Shown one piece after another: positions 2,140-12,794 of a stretch of DNA of 14,168 bases. The DNA comes from Candidatus Methylomirabilota bacterium (lineage in GTDB: Bacteria > Methylomirabilota > Methylomirabilia > Methylomirabilales > Methylomirabilaceae): assembly GCA_028869615.1 (NCBI GenBank), contig JAGWRQ010000037.1, forward strand, positions 1 through 14,168, read 5' to 3'. The translations under genes and the position numbers were made by a program. The notes below the pieces were generated by a model. That model saw only the letters and a list, made by a program, of their open reading frames with translations, ran no database searches and was not told where the DNA came from. Numbering within the stretch: the stretch's first letter is position 1; the number at the start of each line of letters is the position of its first letter.

Positions 2140-3231
<1,092 letters not shown>

Positions 3232-3264
3232 CGGCTCTCTTACAACCGCATTATTTCGGGAAGC

Positions 3265-3363
3265 GTCATTGCGAGGGAGCGCAGCGACCGAAGCAATCCC
3301 ACCGTTCTTCGCATCCTCAAGAACGCTGAGATTGCCGCACTCCCGATGGTCGCTCGCAATGAC
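3265..3363. repeat. REP/BIME-like imperfect palindrome between gap and pgk
   Basis: The left arm 3265-3300 begins GTCATTGCGAGGGAGCGCAG and ends GAAGCAATCCC. The right arm 3328-3363 starts GAGATTGCC and ends GGTCGCTCGCAATGAC; its reverse complement shares GTCATTGCGAG, CGACC and GCAATC with the left arm. Between them CGTTCTT 3303-3309 pairs with AAGAACG 3319-3325. The whole unit can fold into one long hairpin of about 100 bases. From memory, GTCATTGCGAG...GAAGCAATC units are abundant intergenic repeats in several phyla. In the mRNA it could protect the upstream gap message or partly terminate, giving gap more product than pgk. Confidence 0.75.
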
Positions 3364-3386
3364 AATGTAGCTAGACTGATTTCTAT

Positions 3387-3403
3387 TGCGATAGTGAATC
3401 GCA
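3387..3403 (+). repeat. Short perfect inverted repeat before pgk
   Basis: TGCGAT 3387-3392 and ATCGCA 3398-3403 form a 6-bp stem with a 5-base loop, 25 bases before the pgk ATG. No T-run follows, so it is not a terminator. It may affect pgk translation, which otherwise lacks a clear ribosome binding site. Confidence 0.35.
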
Positions 3404-3428
3404 GATCTCCTCTTGCACCGTGAGTGAT

Positions 3429-4616
3429 ATGACCAAACTCTGTATCGATAACCTGGAACTTCCAGGGAAACGGCTTCTCATCCGCGTCGATTTCAACGTC
3501 CCGATCGACGAGCAAGGGATGATTACCGACGACACGCGCATCCGCGCCGCCCTCCCCACGATCAACTATGCGATCCAACATAGGGCGAAGGTCTTGCTCA
3601 TCTCCCACCTCGGCCGGCCCAAGGGTGGTCCCAACCCGAAGTTCAGCCTCGGGCCTGTGGCAGGGCGACTGTCTGCATTGCTGGGGAGTCCGGTCGAGAT
3701 GGCTGAGGATTGCGTGGGACCGGAGGTGAAGGCCCGGATCGACAGGATGGAGCTTGGGGATGTGCTGATGCTGGAGAACTGCCGCTTTCATCCGGAAGAA
3801 GAAAAGAACGACGACATGTTCTCTAGGGCGCTGGCGGAGCTGTGTGACCTGTACGTCAACGACGCCTTCGGTACTGCGCACCGCGCCCACGCCTCCACCG
3901 TCGGCGTGACACGATTCGTCAAGCAGTCGGCGTGCGGTTTTCTCATGCAGACCGAGCTCAAACAGCTCGGGGCGCTGCTCGACCACCCCGCGCGCCCCTT
4001 CATCGCCATTCTTGGCGGCGCGAAGGTGTCGGATAAGATCGGCGTCCTGGCCAATCTGCTCCCGAAGGTGGACAGTTTCCTGATCGGCGGCGGCATGGCC
4101 TATACGTTCCTGAAGGCTCAAGGGCACGAGGTGGGAAGCTCTCGGGTGGAGGCTGACGGACTGAAGGTAGCCCAAGAGACAATGGAGCAGGCCAGCCGTT
4201 CGAACGTGGCCATTCATCTGCCCAGTGACCATGTGATTGCGGAGCGGATTGGCGCAGACGTACCCACCAGACACGTCGATGGGACTATCCCGATCGGTTT
4301 TATGGGGCTTGACATCGGTCCCGCGACGATCAGGCGATTCGTTCGGGAGGTTGAGCGCGCAAAAACGATCCTGTGGAACGGGCCGATGGGCGTCTTCGAG
4401 CTGTTGCCGTTCCGGGAGGGGACGTTTGCCTTGGCCAAAGCGGTCGCGGCCTCGGGCGCCCATTCGGTAATCGGGGGCGGGGATACGGCTGCCGCTGTCG
4501 CCCAAGCTGGAGCCGCTGAGCAGATGACTCATATCTCGACGGGAGGCGGCGCATCCCTGGAGTTTTTGGAAGGGAAGGAACTGCCGGGTATCGCCGCGCT
4601 CACCAATAAAAGATAG
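3429..4616 (+). CDS. pgk: Phosphoglycerate kinase
   Basis: It transfers the acyl phosphate of 1,3-bisphosphoglycerate to ADP, giving ATP and 3-phosphoglycerate. The 395-residue length fits bacterial PGK. Landmarks in order are RVDFNVP (19-25, substrate binding), ISHLGRPKG (58-66), [25 protein letters not shown], the hinge region [11 protein letters not shown], then nucleotide-domain motifs [21 protein letters not shown] and [16 protein letters not shown] 3429 gives the family N-terminus (MTKLCIDNL). An in-frame GTG at 3420 is an alternative, and neither has a good Shine-Dalgarno sequence. It follows gap after 197 bases holding a large palindromic repeat, and is followed by tpiA after 17 bases. 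Lower expression than gap is plausible from this layout. Confidence 0.97.
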
Positions 4617-4633
4617 GGTAGAGGTTTTTAGTG

Positions 4634-5392
4634 ATGCGAACACCGCTTATTGCGGGAAATTGGAAGATGTACAAAACCTCGTCCGAGGCGATCGTATTGG
4701 CGAAGGCGATCGTGAAGACGCTGTCGACGCCAGACGGGACCCAAGTGGTGATATGTCCTCCATTTACGGCGCTTGCTGCTGTTGGTCAGGTCGTTGTCGG
4801 GTCAAGAATAAGCCTTGGCGCGCAGGACCTGCATTGGGCAAAGGAGGGGGCCTACACTGGCGAGGTATCGGCGGAAATGCTCCGGGATATCGGATGTCGC
4901 TATGTCATTATTGGCCACTCCGAGCGGCGACAGTATTTCGGGGAGACCGATGAGGGTGTGAATAAGAAGTGCCGTGCCGCCCTGGCAAGCGATCTCACCC
5001 CGATCGTCTGTGTCGGTGAGACTCTCGCCGAGCGGGAGGCGGGACGCGCTTACGGCATCGTGGAGACACAGCTCAAAGGGGCGCTGTCGGGTCTTTTGCC
5101 TGAGCAGGTTCAAAGGCTTGCCCTCGCGTATGAGCCGGTCTGGGCTATTGGCACAGGAAGAACGGCCACCCCGAGCCAGGCTGACGAGATGCACGCCCAT
5201 ATCCGAAAGACCGTTGCCATGCTGGTCGATGCCGAGATCGCGCGCAGTGTCCGTATCCTCTATGGGGGAAGCGTCAAGTCGGATAATGCCAAGGAGTTGC
5301 TGGAGCGATCTGAGATCGACGGCGCACTGGTTGGCGGGGCAAGCTTACAGGCTGATTCGTTCGCGGCGATCGCAGCAGCGGCCAAAAGATAA
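4634..5392 (+). CDS. tpiA: Triosephosphate isomerase
   Basis: It interconverts dihydroxyacetone phosphate and glyceraldehyde 3-phosphate in the cytoplasm. The protein has 252 residues, the usual size. Catalytic residues are K11 in GNWKMYK, H95 in IIGHSERR and E167 in [11 protein letters not shown]. The phosphate-gripping segments YGGSVKSDN and [10 protein letters not shown] follow near the C-terminus. ATG 4634 is preferred over the overlapping in-frame GTG 4631, with AGAGG (about 4620-4624) some 9 bases upstream. The 17-base gap from pgk and 18-base gap to secG show tight operon packing. Confidence 0.97.
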
Positions 5393-5410
5393 AGGGTTAA
5401 GGAGGTAGTA

Positions 5411-5782
5411 ATGATTATCGCGCTTTCCGTCGTACATCTGCTTATTGCAGTGGTCCTCGTTGTGATTGTGCTCCTCCAGAGCGGCAAAGGCGCCGACATC
5501 GGCGCCGCGTTTGGCGGCGGGTCGAGCCAGACTGTCTTCGGTGGACGCGGCGCTGCGACTTTCTTGAGCAAGCTGACTCTGGCAGCGGCTGTGCTCTTTA
5601 TGATCTCATCCATCATACTGACTGTCGTGTCTGAGCGCAGGGGTCGTTCATCGGTGATTACAGAGGAACGGGTCCAGCAGACCGCCCCAGCCCCTGCATC
5701 GCCTCCGACCGGCGCCCCGGCGCCGCCGACGTCTCCGGCCGAACAGACGCCGCCAGGGCAGGTCCCTCCAGCCGCTAAGTAG
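5411..5782 (+). CDS. secG: Preprotein translocase subunit SecG
   Basis: SecG is the small accessory subunit of the SecYEG channel that helps proteins cross the inner membrane. The 123-residue protein shows two membrane helices, about residues 3-22 and 53-74. The loop between them carries the family signature [17 protein letters not shown] followed by [10 protein letters not shown]. Residues 85-123 form a Pro/Ala/Thr-rich tail, common in SecG from many phyla and probably disordered. AAGGAGG about 6 bases before ATG 5411 is a strong ribosome binding site. Placement after tpiA is a widely conserved but functionally unexplained linkage. Confidence 0.95.
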
Positions 5783-5878: not shown

Positions 5879-6271
5879 ATGGCGCCTCCCTTCGTAAGCT
5901 CCAAGGTTTCACCGTTCGGTAGCCGCTGGTCGAGGATTCGGTCCCGCTTGCGCCGCGGCTTCGCCCATGCGTTCGCACTCAGCGGCCAAGACAGCCGGCT
6001 CGAGGCGGAAGATCTCGCGTTGCTGGATCGTTTTGCCCGCCTTCTCGCTGATCGCGGTCTCACGATGCCTGCCATATTTCTGGTGGAGTCTCTTGTGCCT
6101 CTCGGTTTCCTTGCCAGTCAACTGGTTCATGCCCTGACACCGATCATGGGCATGGTTGCCCCCCCCGATGACATTGAACGGCTCGCCCGTGTGCTGGAGC
6201 GGGAAGCGACCCCGGCGGTCTTCATCGACAGACTTCGACTCATGGAGGAGGGACAGCGCTGTGAGTCGTGA
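5879..6271 (+). CDS. Small conserved hypothetical protein coupled to the MutL-like gene
   Basis: I cannot name a function for this 130-residue protein. Residues 1-40 are basic and low in order. The rest is predicted helical, with a segment LTMPAIFLVESLVPLGFLASQ (about 61-81) and a final helical part ERLARVLEREATPAVFIDRL. From memory, small proteins with an 'L..PAIF.lE...Pl.FL.SQ' core occur beside MutL-like genes in other phyla; a database search would be needed to confirm this. The middle is amphipathic to hydrophobic but probably not a true membrane span. Its end overlaps the GTG start of the ATPase gene by 11 bases, so it is likely translationally coupled and may be a partner subunit. The ribosome binding site before ATG 5879 is weak (AGGGTT), and the real start could lie slightly downstream. 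Confidence 0.7.
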   Translation: MAPPFVSSKVSPFGSRWSRIRSRLRRGFAHAFALSGQDSRLEAEDLALLDRFARLLADRGLTMPAIFLVESLVPLGFLASQLVHALTPIMGMVAPPDDIERLARVLEREATPAVFIDRLRLMEEGQRCES

Positions 6272-8057
6272 GATGACGGCGATCCTGGCCACCGACTGCG
6301 GAAGCACGACCACCAAGGCGATCCTGATCCAGAAGGTAGGGGCAGAGTACCGCCAGACCTTCCGCGGCGAGTCCCCGACCACCGTCGAGGCTCCGTTCGA
6401 CGATGTGACTCGCGGGGTACTGAACGCCATCCAGGAGGTGGAGGAGCTGTCCGGACGGAAGCTCCTGGATGGAGAGAAGATCTTGACGCCTGCCGAGGAG
6501 GGTCACGGTGTCGATCTTTACGTCTCCACGAGCAGCGCCGGTGGAGGTCTCCAGATGATGGTAGCGGGCGTGGTCATGGCCATGACCGCCGAGAGCGCCC
6601 AACGGTGCGCCCTTGGCGCCGGCGCCATCGTCATGGACGTGTTGGCCAGCAATGATGGCAGAGCGGCGCATGAGAAGATCGAGCGAATCCGGGTTCTAAG
6701 GCCAGATATGATCTTGCTGTCCGGCGGGACCGATGGCGGAACGATTTCGCACGTTGTGGAGTTGGCGGAATATATTCGGGCGGCCGATCCGAAGCCCCGG
6801 CTTGGCGGGAGCTTCAAGCTCCCGGTCATCTTTGCCGGCAACAAAGATGCGCGGAATCGGATTCAGGAGATTCTGGGCGACCGAACGGCCCTCGTCATGA
6901 CCGATAATATTCGACCCATCCTTGAGCGGGAGAATCTCGGACCGGCCCGCCACACGATCCACGACCTGTTCCTCGAGCACGTTATGGCTCAGGCGCCGGG
7001 GTACGGAGTGCTCATGGGGTGGACAGGCGCGCCGATCATGCCGACGCCGGCCGCGGTCGGCCTCATCATGGAGCAGGCGGCAAAGGCGCAGGGGTTGAAC
7101 CTGCTGGGTGTGGACATTGGCGGCGCCACAACAGATGTGTTCTCAGTGGTGGATGGACAATTCACTCGGACCGTCAGCGCCAATCTGGGAATGAGTTATA
7201 GCGTGAGTAATGTCCTGGCCGAGGCCGGTATCGACAAGATCGAGCGCTGGCTGGTCGATCCGATTGCAGAGCAGGAGTTGCGGAATCGGATCAAAAATAA
7301 GATGATTCGGCCAACCACGATCCCCCAGACGTTGCCGGATCTGGCCCTGGAGCAGGCAATCGCGCGGGAGGCGCTCCGTCTGGCATTTGACCAACACAAG
7401 GCGCTGGCCGTCAGCCTGAAGGGCGTTCAGCAAGAACGAACCATTGCGGATGCCTTCGAGCAGGAAGAGGGCGGGAAGAGCCTCATCGACCTGTACAGGA
7501 TCGACTTGATCATCGGGAGCGGTGGGATCCTGTCTCATGCGCCACGCCGTGTCCAGGCGATGATGATGATGATCGATGCCTACCAACCGCTTGGACTGAC
7601 GCAGTTGGCGGTGGACAGCATCTTCATGATGCCGCACCTCGGTGTGCTGTCCCAGGTCAATGAGCGAGCCGCCACTGAGGTCTTCCTGAAAGATTGCTTG
7701 GTTCCACTCGGGAGTTGCCTGGCAGCCGAGGGGAGGGCAAAGCGCGGCGAGTCATGTTTCGCGTATACCATCCGATTTGCAGATGGTCGGCAAGCGCAGG
7801 GTACCGTCCGATTCGGAGAGATCCTTCGCCTCGATCTTCCTCTCGGAGCAGAAGCCGAGCTCCAGGCGGAGCCGTCGAAGAGTTTTGACCTGGGTGCCGG
7901 GAAGGGGAAACCGGTGAAGCTTCAAGCGAAAGGCGGCGTAGTCGGGCTGATCCTGGATGCCAGAGGACGGCCGCTCTACCTGGCAGAGGACGAGTCGGAG
8001 CGGATCACCGGGCTGCGCGGTTGGGCTAAGGCGGTCGATCTGTATCCGGAGGTTTAA
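6261..8057 (+). CDS. MutL-like (GlmL family) ASKHA ATPase with long C-terminal extension
   Basis: The family is named for GlmL/MutL of the glutamate mutase operon, thought to act as an ATP-dependent chaperone or reactivase for a B12 enzyme. It is unrelated to mismatch-repair MutL. Here 598 residues show the sugar kinase/Hsp70/actin fold motifs: phosphate-1 loop ATDCGSTTTK (about 10-19), phosphate-2 loop GVDIGGATTD (283-292) and adenosine motif IIGSGG (417-422). SGGTDGG lies near residue 154. About 120 residues past the conserved core (from about 475) form a beta-rich extension with GVVGLILDARGRPL, longer than classic GlmL (about 460 aa). GTG 6261 is chosen because GGAGGG (6247-6252) lies 8 bases upstream; the in-frame ATG 6273 is 20 bases away. 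No mutase subunit is near. Downstream genes encode membrane proteins, so the ATPase may serve a membrane complex instead. Confidence 0.85.
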   Translation: MSREMTAILATDCGSTTTKAILIQKVGAEYRQTFRGESPTTVEAPFDDVTRGVLNAIQEVEELSGRKLLDGEKILTPAEEGHGVDLYVSTSSAGGGLQMMVAGVVMAMTAESAQRCALGAGAIVMDVLASNDGRAAHEKIERIRVLRPDMILLSGGTDGGTISHVVELAEYIRAADPKPRLGGSFKLPVIFAGNKDARNRIQEILGDRTALVMTDNIRPILERENLGPARHTIHDLFLEHVMAQAPGYGVLMGWTGAPIMPTPAAVGLIMEQAAKAQGLNLLGVDIGGATTDVFSVVDGQFTRTVSANLGMSYSVSNVLAEAGIDKIERWLVDPIAEQELRNRIKNKMIRPTTIPQTLPDLALEQAIAREALRLAFDQHKALAVSLKGVQQERTIADAFEQEEGGKSLIDLYRIDLIIGSGGILSHAPRRVQAMMMMIDAYQPLGLTQLAVDSIFMMPHLGVLSQVNERAATEVFLKDCLVPLGSCLAAEGRAKRGESCFAYTIRFADGRQAQGTVRFGEILRLDLPLGAEAELQAEPSKSFDLGAGKGKPVKLQAKGGVVGLILDARGRPLYLAEDESERITGLRGWAKAVDLYPEV

Positions 8058-8064
8058 AGCTATT

Positions 8065-8131
8065 AGCAATCAGCTATCAGCTTTCAGCAAGAGCTGTCTT
8101 CCTGACTGCTGATCGCTGACGGCTGGCTGCT
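8065..8131. repeat. Heptad-periodic CAGC inverted repeat between the ATPase and barrel-sandwich genes
   Basis: The left arm 8065-8089 and right arm 8107-8131 are 25-base inverted repeats differing only at two-base blocks. CAGC recurs every 7 bases in the left arm (CAGCTAT, CAGCTTT, CAGC) and GCTG every 7 bases in the right arm (GCTGATC, GCTGACG, GCTGGCT). A 17-base loop separates them. It fills most of the 82-base gap, the only non-overlapping junction in this cluster. Confidence 0.8.
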
Positions 8132-8139
8132 TTCCTATT

Positions 8140-9279
8140 ATGGCTCATTCATACACACCAGGCTTGCGCATGGCGCCTCAGACCGTGGTCCGGAAGCGGC
8201 GGATCTTGCCGATCCCGGGGCAGGTGCTTGTCCATGAGGGACAGGCGGTTACCGCCACTACGGTGATCGCGCAGACCGAGTTGCCTGGCAAGGTCCACGC
8301 GGTGAATGTGGTCAACCTGCTGGGGATCGTCCCGCAGGAGGTCCGGCGCTATATGCTGAAACGGGAGGGCGATGCGGTCGGGGCCGGCGAGCCGCTGGCC
8401 GAGAATAAGCCACTTATCAAATGGCTGAAGACCCAGGTCCCTTCTCCGATCACCGGAACGATCGAGACCGTGTCCGAGGTGACCGGACAGGTGTTCCTGA
8501 GAGAACCGCCAAGACCTCTGGCCCTGACAGCCTATCTCGACGGCCATGTGGTTGAGACCTTTCCGGGTGAAGGGGCCACCGTGGAGACGGCATGCAGTCT
8601 GGTGCAAGGGATTTTCGGCATCGGCGGCGAGGCTGTGGGTCCCATCGCAGTAGCCGCCGACAACCGCGAAGACGAACTGACACCGGATCGGATTACCGAC
8701 GCGCATCGAGGGACGATCCTCGTGGGTGGCTCGCTGATCGGTCGTGACGGCTTCGCCAGGGCCAAGCAGGCCGGCGTTGCCGCCATTGTCGTAGGCGGCA
8801 TCCACGCCCTTGATCTGAAATTGCTCCTCGGGCGGGACCTCGGTGTCGCCATCACCGGTACTGAACAGGTCGGTCTGACGCTGATCATCACCGAAGGATT
8901 TGGTCGAATTGCCATGGCCAGGCGAACTTTCGATCTTCTGACCTCCAAGGTTGGTCAACGCGCATCCTGCTCTGGCGCGACCCAAATTCGGGCCGGCGTT
9001 ATCAGGCCGGAGGTGATTGTCCCGCTGGGAGAGCAGGCAGCGGGCAGCGGGCAGCGGGCAGCGGGGGAAACCGGAGGAGTTGGAAGCGGACTCCAGGTTG
9101 GCGATCAAATCCGAATTATTCGAGAGCCGTATTTTGGCAGGATTTGTAAGGTATCCGCTCTTCAAGCCGATCTCCGGCTTCTTGCCACGGAAAGCAAGGT
9201 CCGCGTTCTCGAGGCAGAGCTTGACGACGGGCAGCACATCGTCGTCCCTCGTGCCAATGTGGAACTGCTGGAAGCGTGA
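8140..9279 (+). CDS. Predicted barrel-sandwich (lipoyl/RnfC-like) and KOW-like protein linked to the MutL-like ATPase
   Basis: This 379-residue soluble protein has no named function that I know. Residues about 20-130 look like a barrel-sandwich hybrid of the lipoyl/biotinyl or RnfC type: repeated short strands, LPGKVHAVN, and SPITGTIETVSEVTGQVFLREPP split over 102-124. There is no MKM or DKA lysine site, so it is not a conventional carrier. The central part (190-255) is alpha/beta with VGGSLIGRDGF and AAIVVGGI. The C-terminal 60 residues (VGDQIRIIREPYFGRICKV, then VVPRANVELLE) resemble a KOW/SH3-like barrel. A 28-base heptamer repeat inserts AAGSGQRAAG at about 300-309 between the last two parts. 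There is no Shine-Dalgarno sequence before ATG 8140, and ATG 8170 is an alternative. Its TGA overlaps the next gene's GTG. Confidence 0.75.
   Translation: MAHSYTPGLRMAPQTVVRKRRILPIPGQVLVHEGQAVTATTVIAQTELPGKVHAVNVVNLLGIVPQEVRRYMLKREGDAVGAGEPLAENKPLIKWLKTQVPSPITGTIETVSEVTGQVFLREPPRPLALTAYLDGHVVETFPGEGATVETACSLVQGIFGIGGEAVGPIAVAADNREDELTPDRITDAHRGTILVGGSLIGRDGFARAKQAGVAAIVVGGIHALDLKLLLGRDLGVAITGTEQVGLTLIITEGFGRIAMARRTFDLLTSKVGQRASCSGATQIRAGVIRPEVIVPLGEQAAGSGQRAAGETGGVGSGLQVGDQIRIIREPYFGRICKVSALQADLRLLATESKVRVLEAELDDGQHIVVPRANVELLEA
9036..9063 (+). repeat. Heptanucleotide tandem repeat GGCAGCG x4 inside the barrel-sandwich gene
   Basis: Four perfect copies of GGCAGCG follow one another at 9036-9063. 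Each unit contains CAGC, and the 7-base period matches the intergenic inverted repeat at 8065-8131. The 28 bases are not a multiple of three, so any gain or loss of one unit shifts the frame before the C-terminal KOW-like domain. Confidence 0.9.
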
Positions 9280-10517
9280 GTACCGTGCGCGCTCTTGCCG
9301 TAGCGGTGGTTTTAGCCCTTTTCACCCTCCACCCTCCACCCTCCACCCTCGCCGTATCCCTTGCCCCTCCCGAGCAGTTCGAGGCCTTTGACATGCCCGG
9401 CGATGGCGGAGGCAGTATCGGGCTGTCGTGGCAAGCGGCCCCGTTCGATGGACCGACAGTTCGCTATCAGGTCTACATGGCCGATCGGGTGCAAGGACCG
9501 TTTACGCGACTCGCCGAGTTTGCCGCCGACACGCACTACAAGAGCGATGTTGATCGCCCATGGTGGAGCTGGGATCGGAGCAAGGCGTATCACTTTTACC
9601 AGGTGAAATCGACGCAGGATCTCCGCCTCGAGAGCGGACGATCCTACTTCTTCAAGGTGGCGGTGACCGACGGGGTGCAGGCGAGTGAAGGGCCGGTTCA
9701 ATCGGCAGTCCCTGCGCCAAACTTCTTCAATCTGGCAAAGGCGAATAACTTTCTATTGATGCTCCTCTTCTCTGCGCTTGTCCTGTTTGCGATTGCCCAG
9801 GCGAAGCGACATCCCGCCATCTTCCTGCGCCGGATTCCCGGCCTGGATGCGGTGGAAGAGGCGATCGGCCGGGCGACCGAGATGGGACGGCCGATCCTCT
9901 ACCTCACCGGCTCTGACGACATGTCGAGCCTTTCGACGATTGCGGCGACGGTGATCCTTGGACAGGTTGCGAAAAAGGCGGCGGCGTACGACACACAGCT
10001 CAAGGTGCCGCACCGAGACCCGATCGTGATGGCCATCTGTCAGGAGATCGTCAAGGAGTCATACCTGGAGGCCGGACGCCCTGATGCCTATCGTGATGAC
10101 TCCAATTTCTTCATCACCAACGATCAGTTCAGCTACACCGCCGCGGTGAATGGGATTATGCTTCGAGAGCGGCCGGCAGCCAACTTCTTTATGGGCTTTT
10201 ACTATGCTGAGGCGCTCCTGCTGGCAGAGACCGGCGCCGGGACCGGCGCGATCCAGATCGCCGGGACCGACGCCGATCTGCAACTGCCGTTTTTCATTAC
10301 AACCTGCGATTACACCCTGATCGGCGAGGAGCTGTACGCCGCGAGCGCATACCTCTCGCGCGAGCCGGTGCTGGTCGGGACCTTGCGGGGGCAGGATATA
10401 GGGAAGGCATTTCTCCTGCTCTCTATGGTAATCGGGACGGTCCTGGCGACCATCGGTGGGCTCGTTGGAACCCAGGCGTTCGTGCCGTTGCTGCAACTGT
10501 TCCGGGATTTCAAATGA
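9276..10517 (+). CDS. DUF6754-type membrane protein with fibronectin III-like outer domain
   Basis: The 413-residue protein has a hydrophobic N-terminus (4-28) serving as signal peptide or anchor. A beta-rich domain at about 35-142, with GLSWQAAP, YQVY and YFFKVAVTDG, looks like a fibronectin type III fold. A membrane helix follows (about 158-176), then a conserved domain at about 185-370 and a second hydrophobic helix (376-397). The conserved part contains IPGLDAVEEAIGRATEMGRP, NDQFSYTAAVNGIMLRE, NFFMGFYYAEALLLAETG and CDYTLIGEELYAASAYLSR. I recall these as the DUF6754 family, with no function assigned. GTG 9276 overlaps the previous stop (GTGA), with only a weak ribosome binding site, which suggests coupling. 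A CACCCTC x4 repeat encodes part of the signal region. Topology suggests an outer sensor domain linked to a large cytoplasmic domain. Confidence 0.82.
   Translation: MSTVRALAVAVVLALFTLHPPPSTLAVSLAPPEQFEAFDMPGDGGGSIGLSWQAAPFDGPTVRYQVYMADRVQGPFTRLAEFAADTHYKSDVDRPWWSWDRSKAYHFYQVKSTQDLRLESGRSYFFKVAVTDGVQASEGPVQSAVPAPNFFNLAKANNFLLMLLFSALVLFAIAQAKRHPAIFLRRIPGLDAVEEAIGRATEMGRPILYLTGSDDMSSLSTIAATVILGQVAKKAAAYDTQLKVPHRDPIVMAICQEIVKESYLEAGRPDAYRDDSNFFITNDQFSYTAAVNGIMLRERPAANFFMGFYYAEALLLAETGAGTGAIQIAGTDADLQLPFFITTCDYTLIGEELYAASAYLSREPVLVGTLRGQDIGKAFLLLSMVIGTVLATIGGLVGTQAFVPLLQLFRDFK
9323..9350 (+). repeat. Heptanucleotide tandem repeat CACCCTC x4 in the signal peptide of the DUF6754-type gene
   Basis: Four perfect copies of CACCCTC lie at 9323-9350 and encode TLHPPPSTLA around residues 17-26. 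Unit length 7 means that a copy-number change would shift the frame very early and abolish the protein. Confidence 0.9.
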
Positions 10518-11152
10518 CACTGTTCCTGCGGCGGACGTTCCCGCTGATTCTGACCTTCCTGTTTGGTGTGGCGGCCGCCCTGCAGTATTACATCCCCCAC
10601 CCGGTCTCGGAGGCGGCGCTCACCGAGGTCTCGGTCTGGCTTCGGATCATCCTTGGATTCGCCATGATCCTGGGGATCGCCAGCCTTTCTCACGTTCATT
10701 ATGCGAAGATCCGGATGCGGACGGCCGGCTGGGGGTACAGCCTGGTGGTCTATCTCTCGATGGCGGCCACAGTCGTCGTGGGGGTGTGGTCGCGAGGACA
10801 GGAGGAAGGCACAGGCTTTGGTTGGATCTATACATATGCCCTGCTCGCGCTGCAAGGGACGATGTTTGCCATACTCGGATTTTTCGTCGCCTCTGCCGCC
10901 TTCCGCGCCTTCCGGGCCAGGAGCAAAGAGGCGGCTGTCCTGCTGCTGGCGGCGATCCTCATGATGTTCGGTCGGGTGCCCTTGGGGGAGTACCTGATCC
11001 CTGCGACGGGGCCGATGGCCGGCTGGCTCCTGAATGTTGTGAACACTGCCGCCCGACGGGGGATCCTCATCGGGATCAGCCTCGGTGGAATCGCCATGTC
11101 GGTGAAGATCATTTTCGGGATCGAGCGGTCGTATCTGGGGGGCCGAGATTGA
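10514..11152 (+). CDS. Polytopic membrane protein, about six helices
   Basis: This 212-residue protein is not one I can name. Hydrophobic segments are at about 8-28, 43-60, 74-92, 105-130, 140-155 and 185-203, so six helices with both ends likely cytoplasmic. Short basic loops (KIRMR, RAFRARSKE) fit the positive-inside rule. There are no cofactor-binding signatures, no heme-binding CxxCH and no obvious transporter motif. A histidine pair, HVHY, lies after the second helix. Its ATG overlaps the stop of the DUF6754-type gene (ATGA), and its own TGA overlaps the next start, so translation of the three is probably coupled and the products may form one complex. Confidence 0.8.
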   Translation: MTLFLRRTFPLILTFLFGVAAALQYYIPHPVSEAALTEVSVWLRIILGFAMILGIASLSHVHYAKIRMRTAGWGYSLVVYLSMAATVVVGVWSRGQEEGTGFGWIYTYALLALQGTMFAILGFFVASAAFRAFRARSKEAAVLLLAAILMMFGRVPLGEYLIPATGPMAGWLLNVVNTAARRGILIGISLGGIAMSVKIIFGIERSYLGGRD

Positions 11153-12030
11153 AGGATTTGGCGAGTAAGCTGCTGCGCATGGATCGTCGGGTGATCTTCA
11201 TCCTGATCGCGCTGGCGACGCTGATCCCGCTCCTGCGCCCGATCGGCTTTCCGATCCGGATCTCACCTGAGGTGAAGCAGGTCTACGACTACATCGAGTC
11301 ACTTCCGCCAGGATCGGTATTTTTGCTGTCGTTGGACTTCGACCCGGCCTCGAAACCGGAACTCTATCCGATGGCTGTAGCGTTACTCAATCACGCCTTC
11401 AAACGGAACCTGCGGGTCGTCGGGATGACCCTCTGGGTGACGGGGACGGGAATGGCTGAAAAGGTGGTGAGCGGGATCGCCAGCGAGCATGGGAAGCGAC
11501 GAGGAGTGGACTACACCTTCCTTGGGTATTCGCCCGGCGGGACCAACGTCATCATCAACATGGGTCAGGACCTGGCTGCCGCCTTTCCGACCGACCATTA
11601 TGGCGAGCGGACCGCGGATCTCCCGGTCATGCAGGGGGTCACATCGCTGAGGCAGGTCAACTACGTTGTGAGCCTGGCCGCGGGTACGCCAGGCGTCGAA
11701 AGCTGGTACCTGTATGGGAAGGAAAAGTACGGCTTCGAGTTGGGTGGTGGCGTGACGGCCGTGATCGCGCCGGGCCTCTACCCCTTCCTCGATACCGGGC
11801 AGATCAACGGCTTGATCGGCGGGTTGCGCGGGGCAGCCGAGTATGAGACCTTGATCGGAATGAAGGGAAAGGCGGTGGCCGGGATGGATGCGCAATCAGC
11901 CACACATTTTATCATTATCGGCCTAATTCTGCTCTGCAATCTCTTTTACTTCTTGACGCCCCGTATGAGGATCCGATCCTTCACGGGTACCCAGGATGGG
12001 CCTGGCTCGCCGCAAGAGGCGCGGCGCTGA
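11149..12030 (+). CDS. Bitopic membrane protein with large extracytoplasmic alpha/beta domain
   Basis: Reading from TTG 11149 the protein has 293 residues: a short basic N-terminus, a membrane helix at about 14-33, an alpha/beta domain at about 38-250 and a second helix at about 252-269, followed by a short basic tail. The middle domain includes GSVFLLSLDFDPASKPELYP, RVVGMTLWVTGTG, VDYTFLGYSPGG and FLDTGQINGLIGGLRGAAEYE. The alternating strand-helix pattern suggests a Rossmann-like fold on the outer face. I know no assigned function. TTG 11149 overlaps the previous TGA (TTGA) and follows a G-rich stretch. The alternative ATG 11179 lacks a ribosome binding site and would leave a very short N-terminus before the helix. 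The reading frame is open well upstream (to 10456), but that part is only a shadow of the previous gene. The stop shares one base with the next ATG. Confidence 0.75.
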   Translation: MKDLASKLLRMDRRVIFILIALATLIPLLRPIGFPIRISPEVKQVYDYIESLPPGSVFLLSLDFDPASKPELYPMAVALLNHAFKRNLRVVGMTLWVTGTGMAEKVVSGIASEHGKRRGVDYTFLGYSPGGTNVIINMGQDLAAAFPTDHYGERTADLPVMQGVTSLRQVNYVVSLAAGTPGVESWYLYGKEKYGFELGGGVTAVIAPGLYPFLDTGQINGLIGGLRGAAEYETLIGMKGKAVAGMDAQSATHFIIIGLILLCNLFYFLTPRMRIRSFTGTQDGPGSPQEARR

Positions 12031-12794
12031 TGACCCCATCTGTTCTGCTCGGCGCCTGGGTGGCCGCTGGTCTCACCCTCTGCATGTTCAGCTTCCTATA
12101 TAAGGATAACCCCTTCTTCCGATTCGGGGAGCACCTCTATGTGGGAATCTCGATGGGGTACACCATCGTTCGGATCTACTACGACGTCATGGTCAAAAGC
12201 CTCTATACCCCGGTCACCCAGGAAGGGAAATGGTGGTTCCTGATCGCCGCCCTCCTGGGTCTTCTGGTCCTGACTCGCTTCATCCCGAAAGTGAGCTGGC
12301 TGAGCCGAATCTCGTTTGCCGTGATCGTTGGGTTCGGTTCCGGGGTTGCTATCCCCCGCATCATCTCCTCCAACATCCTTCAGCAGGTGCAGGGGACGTT
12401 GAAGCCGCTGCTCGGCAATGCCGGTCAACCTCTGTTCGGCATGGCGCAATTGAATGCGCTACTGATCCTTGTCGGCGTCGTCACGGTGCTGGTCTATTTC
12501 TTCTTCTCCATCGAGCATAAAGGGGCGATCCAGGTCTCAGCGAGGATCGGCATCTATTTCCTCATGATCAACTTCGGCGCAGGCTTCGGCTATACGGTGA
12601 TGGCCAGAATGTCGCTCCTCATCGGCCGGTTCGATGATCTGATCCTCTTTGGCTCCCGCGACTACGGCTATGCCTCGTTGATTCTGCTCGGTATGATCGC
12701 GTTCGGCCTGTTCATGTGGGAGCGTAACTCGATCACCCCCTCCGGCCCCGATCAGGAAGGAGGCGCCGCCGGTCGCGATGTGCGTGATGAGTGA
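12030..12794 (+). CDS. Polytopic membrane protein, about seven helices, last gene of the MutL-like/DUF6754 cluster
   Basis: This 254-residue protein has hydrophobic segments at about 5-22, 34-51, 68-85, 94-110, 140-160, 172-192 and 213-231, then a hydrophilic tail. It is not a family I can name. Features worth noting are FFRFGEHLYVGISMGYTIVRIYYD in the first third (shown over two helices), a conserved-looking NFGAGFGYTVMARMSLLIGRFDDL near 181-204, and charged residues within or near helices. It begins at ATG 12030 in a TGATG overlap with the preceding gene. No clear terminator follows, and OsmC starts 90 bases later with its own strong ribosome binding site. It is probably the channel-like or scaffold partner of the preceding membrane proteins; this is inference from context only. 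Confidence 0.8.
   Translation: MTPSVLLGAWVAAGLTLCMFSFLYKDNPFFRFGEHLYVGISMGYTIVRIYYDVMVKSLYTPVTQEGKWWFLIAALLGLLVLTRFIPKVSWLSRISFAVIVGFGSGVAIPRIISSNILQQVQGTLKPLLGNAGQPLFGMAQLNALLILVGVVTVLVYFFFSIEHKGAIQVSARIGIYFLMINFGAGFGYTVMARMSLLIGRFDDLILFGSRDYGYASLILLGMIAFGLFMWERNSITPSGPDQEGGAAGRDVRDE

Follow-up and report, generated by a model that had tools for sequence, protein, structure and literature searches.

The contig analysed here in full (14,168 nucleotides, the window; G000:C203 in a 2.06 Mb draft genome of NC10, Methylomirabilis-like) carries at positions 5879–12794 of the forward strand seven tightly packed genes, all present as open reading frames, that we call g1, M (a MutL-type ATPase), B (barrel-sandwich/KOW), D (DUF6754), g5, g6 and g7. 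We put forward, as a reading that stands about evenly balanced between true and false, that these genes would specify one conserved envelope machine in which an ATPase module of g1, M and B acts on one or more membrane complexes of D, g5, g6 and g7 (D567). The nearest named relatives of the window DUF6754 protein belong to an NC10 bacterium (92% identity) and to Candidatus Methylomirabilis (88%). Pfam recognizes clear families for M and D only; B falls below threshold, g1 and g6 match no family and the matches of g5 and g7 are at chance level. None of the seven proteins hits a PADLOC family (anti-phage defence models) at E ≤ 0.01.

The initial annotation had described seven genes in one direction with overlapping junctions and a single real gap, and this description is borne out by the sequence. 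The junctions read GTGA at 9276, ATGA at 10514, TTGA at 11149 and TGATG at 12028–12032, and 82 bases at 8058–8139 separate M from B. Gene g1 ends at 6271, and M may start either at GTG 6261, giving an overlap of 11 bases, or at the in-frame ATG 6273, which is also plausible and leaves a gap of one base.

Gene content and order are shared with distant bacteria. A contig scan with a DUF6754 alignment returned at least 583 stretches, all 583 of which encode a relative, and the best 80 of these were kept. Their titles include Nitrospirota, NC10 (Methylomirabilis), Planctomycetota (Brocadia, Scalindua and Kuenenia), Elusimicrobiota, Latescibacterota and Binatia, together with WOR-3/Stahlbacteria, Eisenbacteria and Edwardsbacteria. 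Profiles of the seven proteins were run on 90 loci, a set that includes the window, its own piece L001 and eight further loci shorter than 4 kb and in which many loci are cut by contig ends; they matched g1 in 40, M in 45, B in 58, D in 89, g5 in 88, g6 in 86 and g7 in 79. The complete order 1-M-B-D-5-6-7 recurs in records titled Nitrospirota, Planctomycetota and Elusimicrobiota, and chance is excluded because the same genes occur in the same order in several phyla. Part of 40 further regions show this order as well, while others have D567 or 1-M-B apart and one (L136) reads 1-D-5-6-7-M-B. Counted over 121 loci that were chosen for holding D or M (L001–L009, which are short, and L090–L097 are left out), D is followed by g5, g6 and g7 in 98 of the 102 places with enough sequence, B comes after M in 52 of 58, and M has g1 before it in 45 of the 55 places with enough upstream sequence. 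Among the clusters of neighbouring genes listed (45 + 22), none beyond the seven spans many phyla, most neighbours being unassigned.

The association is also observed in 290 genomes that were counted independently of the loci chosen for D. Full-length M is defined here by E < 1e-100, a threshold that sets aside 12 genomes with weaker matches, three of them D carriers. Of the 290, 66 have D, 61 have full-length M and 64 have B; 59 combine D with M, 63 D with B and 60 M with B, and among the 224 genomes that lack D only two have M and one has B. Within the genus of the window D is present in 15 of 15 genomes. Outside it, D occurs in 51 of 275 sampled genomes, and of these carriers 45 also have M and 48 have B (Fisher p = 1.7e-42 and 8e-49, with kinship ignored). 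The carriers span many families, and D is absent from all 14 control genomes. Bacteria named in records that hold D include Nitrospirota, anammox Planctomycetota, Elusimicrobiota and Cloacimonadota. The ATPase and the DUF6754 block, for which the initial annotation had raised the prospect of a pairing confined to close relatives, thus go together well beyond these.

The copy numbers of the two gene groups differ. Two to seven D matches (75 in all) are present in 25 of the 66 D genomes, and D567 forms tandem arrays in L081, L088 and L089. Stand-alone B is nevertheless single in all 25 of these genomes, a count that sets aside fusion pieces (G175, G208 and G242), a 32-residue piece (G110) and an 18-bit match (G219). 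Full-length M is single in 22 (in G128 as two halves on two contigs, in G222 broken), the exceptions being G273 with two copies, G101 with none and G271, where it is cut by a contig end. Only the best six candidates for B and four for M were scored per genome, which could hide a second, weak copy. A single cytosolic module therefore appears to act for several membrane modules, in contradiction to the fixed stoichiometry that had been suggested from the tight packing.

The predicted cytosolic module starts with g1 (5879–6271, 130 residues), which has no Pfam or NCBIfam family and carries in its relatives a conserved motif around FLES..P..FLGSQ. M (6261–8057 when read from the GTG start, 598 residues) contains the full 450-position MutL domain (PF13941, 417.5 bits against a cut-off of 27), so that its naming as MutL in the initial annotation is certain. 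Proteins of the ASKHA superfamily use two phosphate motifs and an adenosine motif, and DCGSTTTK, DIGGATTD and GSGGIL are intact in M. In an alignment of 11 sequences from several phyla, the window included, the mean column identity is 76% and residues Asp12, Gly14, Ser15, Thr16, Thr18 and Lys19, Asp285, Gly287, Gly288, Thr290 and Asp292, and Gly419–Gly422 are invariant. In a larger set D.GST is kept in 56 of 61 sequences and D[IMV]GG.T[TS]D in 61 of 61. Judged by the domain match above cut-off and these motifs, M is a member of the MutL family of ASKHA ATPases. Residues 480–598 (7698–8054) form a C-terminal extension that lies beyond the Pfam MutL model and is found in relatives. Ten of 11 members touch Hydantoinase_A, and a sequence search of M against the PDB gave chance-level matches only.

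B (8140–9279, 379 residues) appears to combine an RnfC_N/NqrA_N-like barrel-sandwich hybrid at the N-terminus with a very weak RraA-like middle and a KOW-like C-terminus. The barrel-sandwich/KOW assignment made initially is below cut-off for the window copy (RnfC_N 16.7 bits against 25.6) and recurs in relatives, with RnfC_N matched in 15 of 20 and KOW in 11 of 20 at E ≤ 0.1. There is no sign of biotin or lipoyl attachment because the hairpin lysine is not conserved (48 of 69), and an alignment of 20 B proteins shows no invariant or almost invariant cysteine. The single sequence found no match in the PDB; the profile gave seven, of which only weak ones to SPT5-KOW (E = 0.037) and RraA (E = 0.066) are singled out.

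Single open frames that join M to B occur in L117 (985 residues), L121 (1015 residues) and L124 (1012 residues), which suggests that the two proteins touch. Pfam finds MutL in all three fusions and RnfC_N above cut-off (29.6 bits) in the B half of that from L117. With the C-terminal half of one fusion as query, 71 relatives were obtained, 70 of them 829–1063 residues long and 67 covering at least 98% of the half. Where the source name gives an organism, these are Fermentibacteria, Zixibacteria, Delongbacteria, Cloacimonadota and one Firmicutes metagenome-assembled genome. Several fusions carry the source name 'glutamate mutase L', which may mislead. Some fusions (L121:8878–11925; P0128, P0129, P0131 and P0132) have an N-terminal helix-turn-helix (PF01381/PF12844), which makes them ATPase–barrel-sandwich proteins with a likely DNA-binding head.

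D (9276–10517, 413 residues) is predicted to consist of an N-terminal hydrophobic helix, an FN3 ectodomain (about residues 28–149; 9357–9722), a transmembrane segment, an alpha/beta domain and a second transmembrane segment. The alpha/beta part corresponds to DUF6754 (PF20539, residues 147–399; 9714–10472), an assignment already made in the initial annotation that is certain at 400.3 bits against a cut-off of 27. Its neighbour g5 (10514–11152, 212 residues) has about six hydrophobic segments and a conserved C-terminal GIER..LG. In g6 (11149–12030, 293 residues) an alpha/beta Rossmann-like domain (residues 40–236) would lie between two transmembrane segments, and g7 (12030–12794, 254 residues) is a polytopic membrane protein without a Pfam family. 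A weak NCBIfam match of g7 to lspA (17.6 bits against a cut-off of 73.95) is not trusted, nor are weak matches of g6 to DUF2249 and Cyt_bd_oxida_II, each seen in one member of 29. Of the profiles compared with the PDB, that of D matched in its FN3 part only (2uve), that of g5 gave two weak receptor matches only and those of g6 and g7 gave none; hhalign of g5 against g7 found nothing.

AlphaFold predicts the folds of D and g6 at high model confidence (predicted local distance difference test scores 91.2 and 91.8). The D model was built with 46 of 49 selected relatives aligned (L010, L082 and L083 were dropped for length) and the g6 model with 28 of 28, from a set pre-filtered by length and 75% identity. 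In these models the alpha/beta domain of D is probably cytosolic, and that of g6 is probably extracytoplasmic with its elements in the same order as in the D domain. The stretch after the first transmembrane segment of D is net positive in 47 of 47 sequences, and the N- and C-terminal flanks of g6 are net positive in 97% and 93% of 29. The two sizeable outward domains proposed earlier would then be the FN3 part of D and the g6 domain, whereas the DUF6754 alpha/beta domain more likely faces the cytosol.

Positions conserved in at least 95% of 132 D sequences include Arg185, Arg199, Glu202, Gln284, Arg297, Glu312 and Glu318, as well as Gln327, Gln336, Cys344, Asp345, Glu351, Glu352 and Asp374; those in 123 g6 sequences include Asp63, Glu71, Asp121, Asp149, Thr203, Gln218 and Glu233. 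Some conserved residues are located at or just after strand ends (Gly212, Gln284, Gly307 and Thr331 in D; Asp63 and Thr203 in g6). D varies in length from 258 to 975 residues, and the long copies examined differ through their N-terminal part. This part is much longer in the 929–975-residue copies of L100 and L126, the relatives of the L100 copy being named Cloacimonadota.

In the arrangement that we favour, D, g5, g6 and g7 would assemble in the inner membrane into a complex that exposes an alpha/beta (Rossmann-like) domain on either face, that of D inside and that of g6 outside, and bears an FN3 ectodomain of variable length on D. The g1, M and B proteins would form a separate cytosolic module in which M is the ASKHA ATPase, B its direct partner and g1 perhaps an adaptor. 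M–B would bind D567 from the cytosol and use ATP to assemble, energize or reset it, one 1-M-B module serving one or several D567 complexes per cell. The physical complex, its sidedness, the use of ATP and the action of M on D567 are thus what we infer, and the earlier proposal that the ATPase drives or assembles a membrane complex can be kept as an inference only.

Several observations weigh against this arrangement. None of the 80 genomes sampled from the order or class of the window, its own genus excepted, has D; the distribution is patchy, and D, confined within that class to the genus, is not part of a universal core. Of the 66 genomes with D, seven lack full-length M and three lack B, some of these genomes being incomplete, so that D567 may not always require the ATPase module. 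In L098, L101, L103, L119, L122, L128, L130 and L132, M is separated from D567, whether or not g1 and B accompany it. The three M–B fusions are not located near D567, and their genomes encode M and B as separate proteins too, so that M–B may have another client. The topology is not clear-cut for g6, where the stretch after the first transmembrane segment is also net positive (+1.2, 86%), and the stretch before the first transmembrane segment of D is likewise net positive (+1.1, 68%). Finally, the D and g6 domains show no homology when their sequences are compared. With hhalign the full alignments gave a probability of 0.9% and the domain alignments 1.9% one way and 0.1% the other (0.1–0.7% for four control pairs), and in an ungapped profile test the score was reached by 52 of 200 shuffles. 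A single hint is that in the last block (D 326–361) the register that fits the predicted elements scores best among the offsets tried. Since these comparisons are null, our claim is limited to the same order of elements in the two domains and does not extend to homology.

Of the alternatives, the one closest to this arrangement is a family of transporters or receptors with a shared energizer in the manner of group II energy-coupling factor (ECF) transporters, M–B being the common module and each D567 a substrate-specific unit. The single stand-alone B and mostly single M beside several D matches, the tandem arrays, the N-terminal length variation of D and the placing of conserved D and g6 residues at strand ends, as in ligand sites, would all suit it, and group II ECF transporters likewise have, by analogy, one common ATPase module for several membrane modules per genome. 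The ATPase here is, however, of the ASKHA and not the ABC type, the membrane proteins match no transporter family, and we know of no ASKHA ATPase that drives a transporter. This alternative, which overlaps with our preferred arrangement and differs from it in the role of ATP, seems unlikely to us. M could instead serve a B12-dependent mutase as its GlmL-type chaperone or reactivase and merely be co-transcribed with unrelated membrane genes. It shares with the hydantoinase-like ASKHA proteins of the GlmL/MutL family (PF13941, TIGR01319 and NF040745) the full MutL domain and the nucleotide-binding motifs, and several M–B relatives bear the glutamate mutase name. Its scores nevertheless stay below all three GlmL cut-offs (NF040745, 228.5 against 475 bits; NF040744, 208.1 against 600; TIGR01319, 165.3 against 204.05), and unlike that family it has the C-terminal extension and goes with B and a membrane complex. 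No B12 enzyme is present among the nine window proteins scanned (the neighbours of relatives were not searched for such families), and the nine genomes in which D is missing and M is only a weak GlmL-like match all lack B. In the suggested check for co-variation with B12 enzymes or envelope systems, methylmalonyl-CoA mutase, the sole B12 enzyme tested, co-varies only weakly: it is somewhat commoner with D (36 of 51 against 74 of 144 without D, p = 0.02) and missing from 15 of 51 D carriers outside the phylum. The envelope marker Omp85 is uninformative (274 of 290 genomes). A mutase reactivase is, in our judgement, improbable.

A layout recalling PilM with PilN and PilO had been proposed initially, and a platform of this kind for a pilus, secretion system or surface structure would also pair an ASKHA-fold ATPase with membrane proteins that have probable extracytoplasmic domains. 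This general likeness finds no support in sequence, none of the seven proteins matching PilM_2, PilN or PilO at E ≤ 1 (the neighbours were not screened for pilins or secretins), and the locus has the polytopic pair g5/g7 together with DUF6754 instead. PilM_2 is too common for its co-occurrence to be informative (272 of 290 genomes overall; 48 of 51 with D and 133 of 144 without), and such a platform is very improbable. We give similarly little credence to an envelope glycan or glycoconjugate system in which the Rossmann domains would resemble glycosyltransferases and M would act as a hydantoinase/BadF-type kinase of small molecules. M touches Hydantoinase_A, and Foldseek relates g6 weakly to trehalose-phosphate synthase and other Rossmann folds (best E = 1.8e-4, TM-score 0.31), but such structural matches are generic. 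Five loci share a gene family immediately upstream of D (between B and D in three of them), and the single copy checked is PMT_2; this neighbour, however, is limited to four loci titled Elusimicrobia/Elusimicrobiota and one titled 'bacterium'. A redox or ion pump related to Rnf/Nqr is scarcely credible. The RnfC/NqrA-like barrel-sandwich in the N-terminal part of B, seen also in the B half of one of the three M–B fusions scanned, and the redox genes that flank D567 in L081, L089 and L108 would speak for it; against it, no other Rnf/Nqr subunit is encoded here, D, g5, g6 and g7 match no Rnf/Nqr family at E ≤ 1, and B has a KOW-like end and lacks a conserved cysteine.

The seven-gene system as a whole matches no described system tested or known to us. 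A stronger formulation, which we offer tentatively and regard as doubtful, is that it represents a new class of ATP-driven inner-membrane machine: M with B would power or reset a four-protein core with related Rossmann-like domains on opposite faces (D inside and g6 outside), the shared module would serve several paralogous cores with diversified ectodomains, and M would be the first ASKHA common energizer of a transport or sensing family. In the literature searched, which is part of what is in print, no paper naming DUF6754 or PF20539 was found, and searches on PF13941, on GlmL with glutamate mutase, on MutL with ASKHA and membrane and on MutL with Nitrospira gave apparently nothing on this system. 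Its ATPase is strongly conserved; if our arrangement is correct, an envelope system has so far escaped notice in these little-studied bacteria and is now open to direct tests.

Upstream of g1 lie genes that we take to be gap-pgk-tpi, followed by secG (Pfam). Relatives of these gap, pgk, tpi and secG genes (window 2161–5782) are located directly upstream of g1-M in L010:2528–6194 (NC10) and, with one extra open reading frame between, in L132:3806–7264; since L132 is from another phylum, this suggests an old linkage to g1-M. The M–B gap contains a copy of a short repeat element of the AGCNATCAGC type; with up to two mismatches allowed, the genome contains 73 forward and 55 reverse occurrences of its 17-base pattern and none of the reversed control. 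An Rfam search gave no match at gathering score. Genes for FAD-dependent and ferredoxin-like oxidoreductases lie near the tandem D567 copies of L081, L089 and L108. L013, titled as a Klebsiella pneumoniae metagenome-assembled genome, has a D567 cluster with a D 63% identical to that of the window, and its title is probably wrong. Downstream of g7, 31 loci, all with Nitrospira or Nitrospirota titles, share a gene of one family (e.g. L034:13492–14931) that is Memo-like (PF01875) in the one copy checked. Another one-family gene faces the end of g7 in nine loci (L063, L066, L067, L069, L070, L074, L077, L079 and L086), eight titled Elusimicrobia and one 'bacterium', and is PpiC/SurA-like in the one copy checked (L069).

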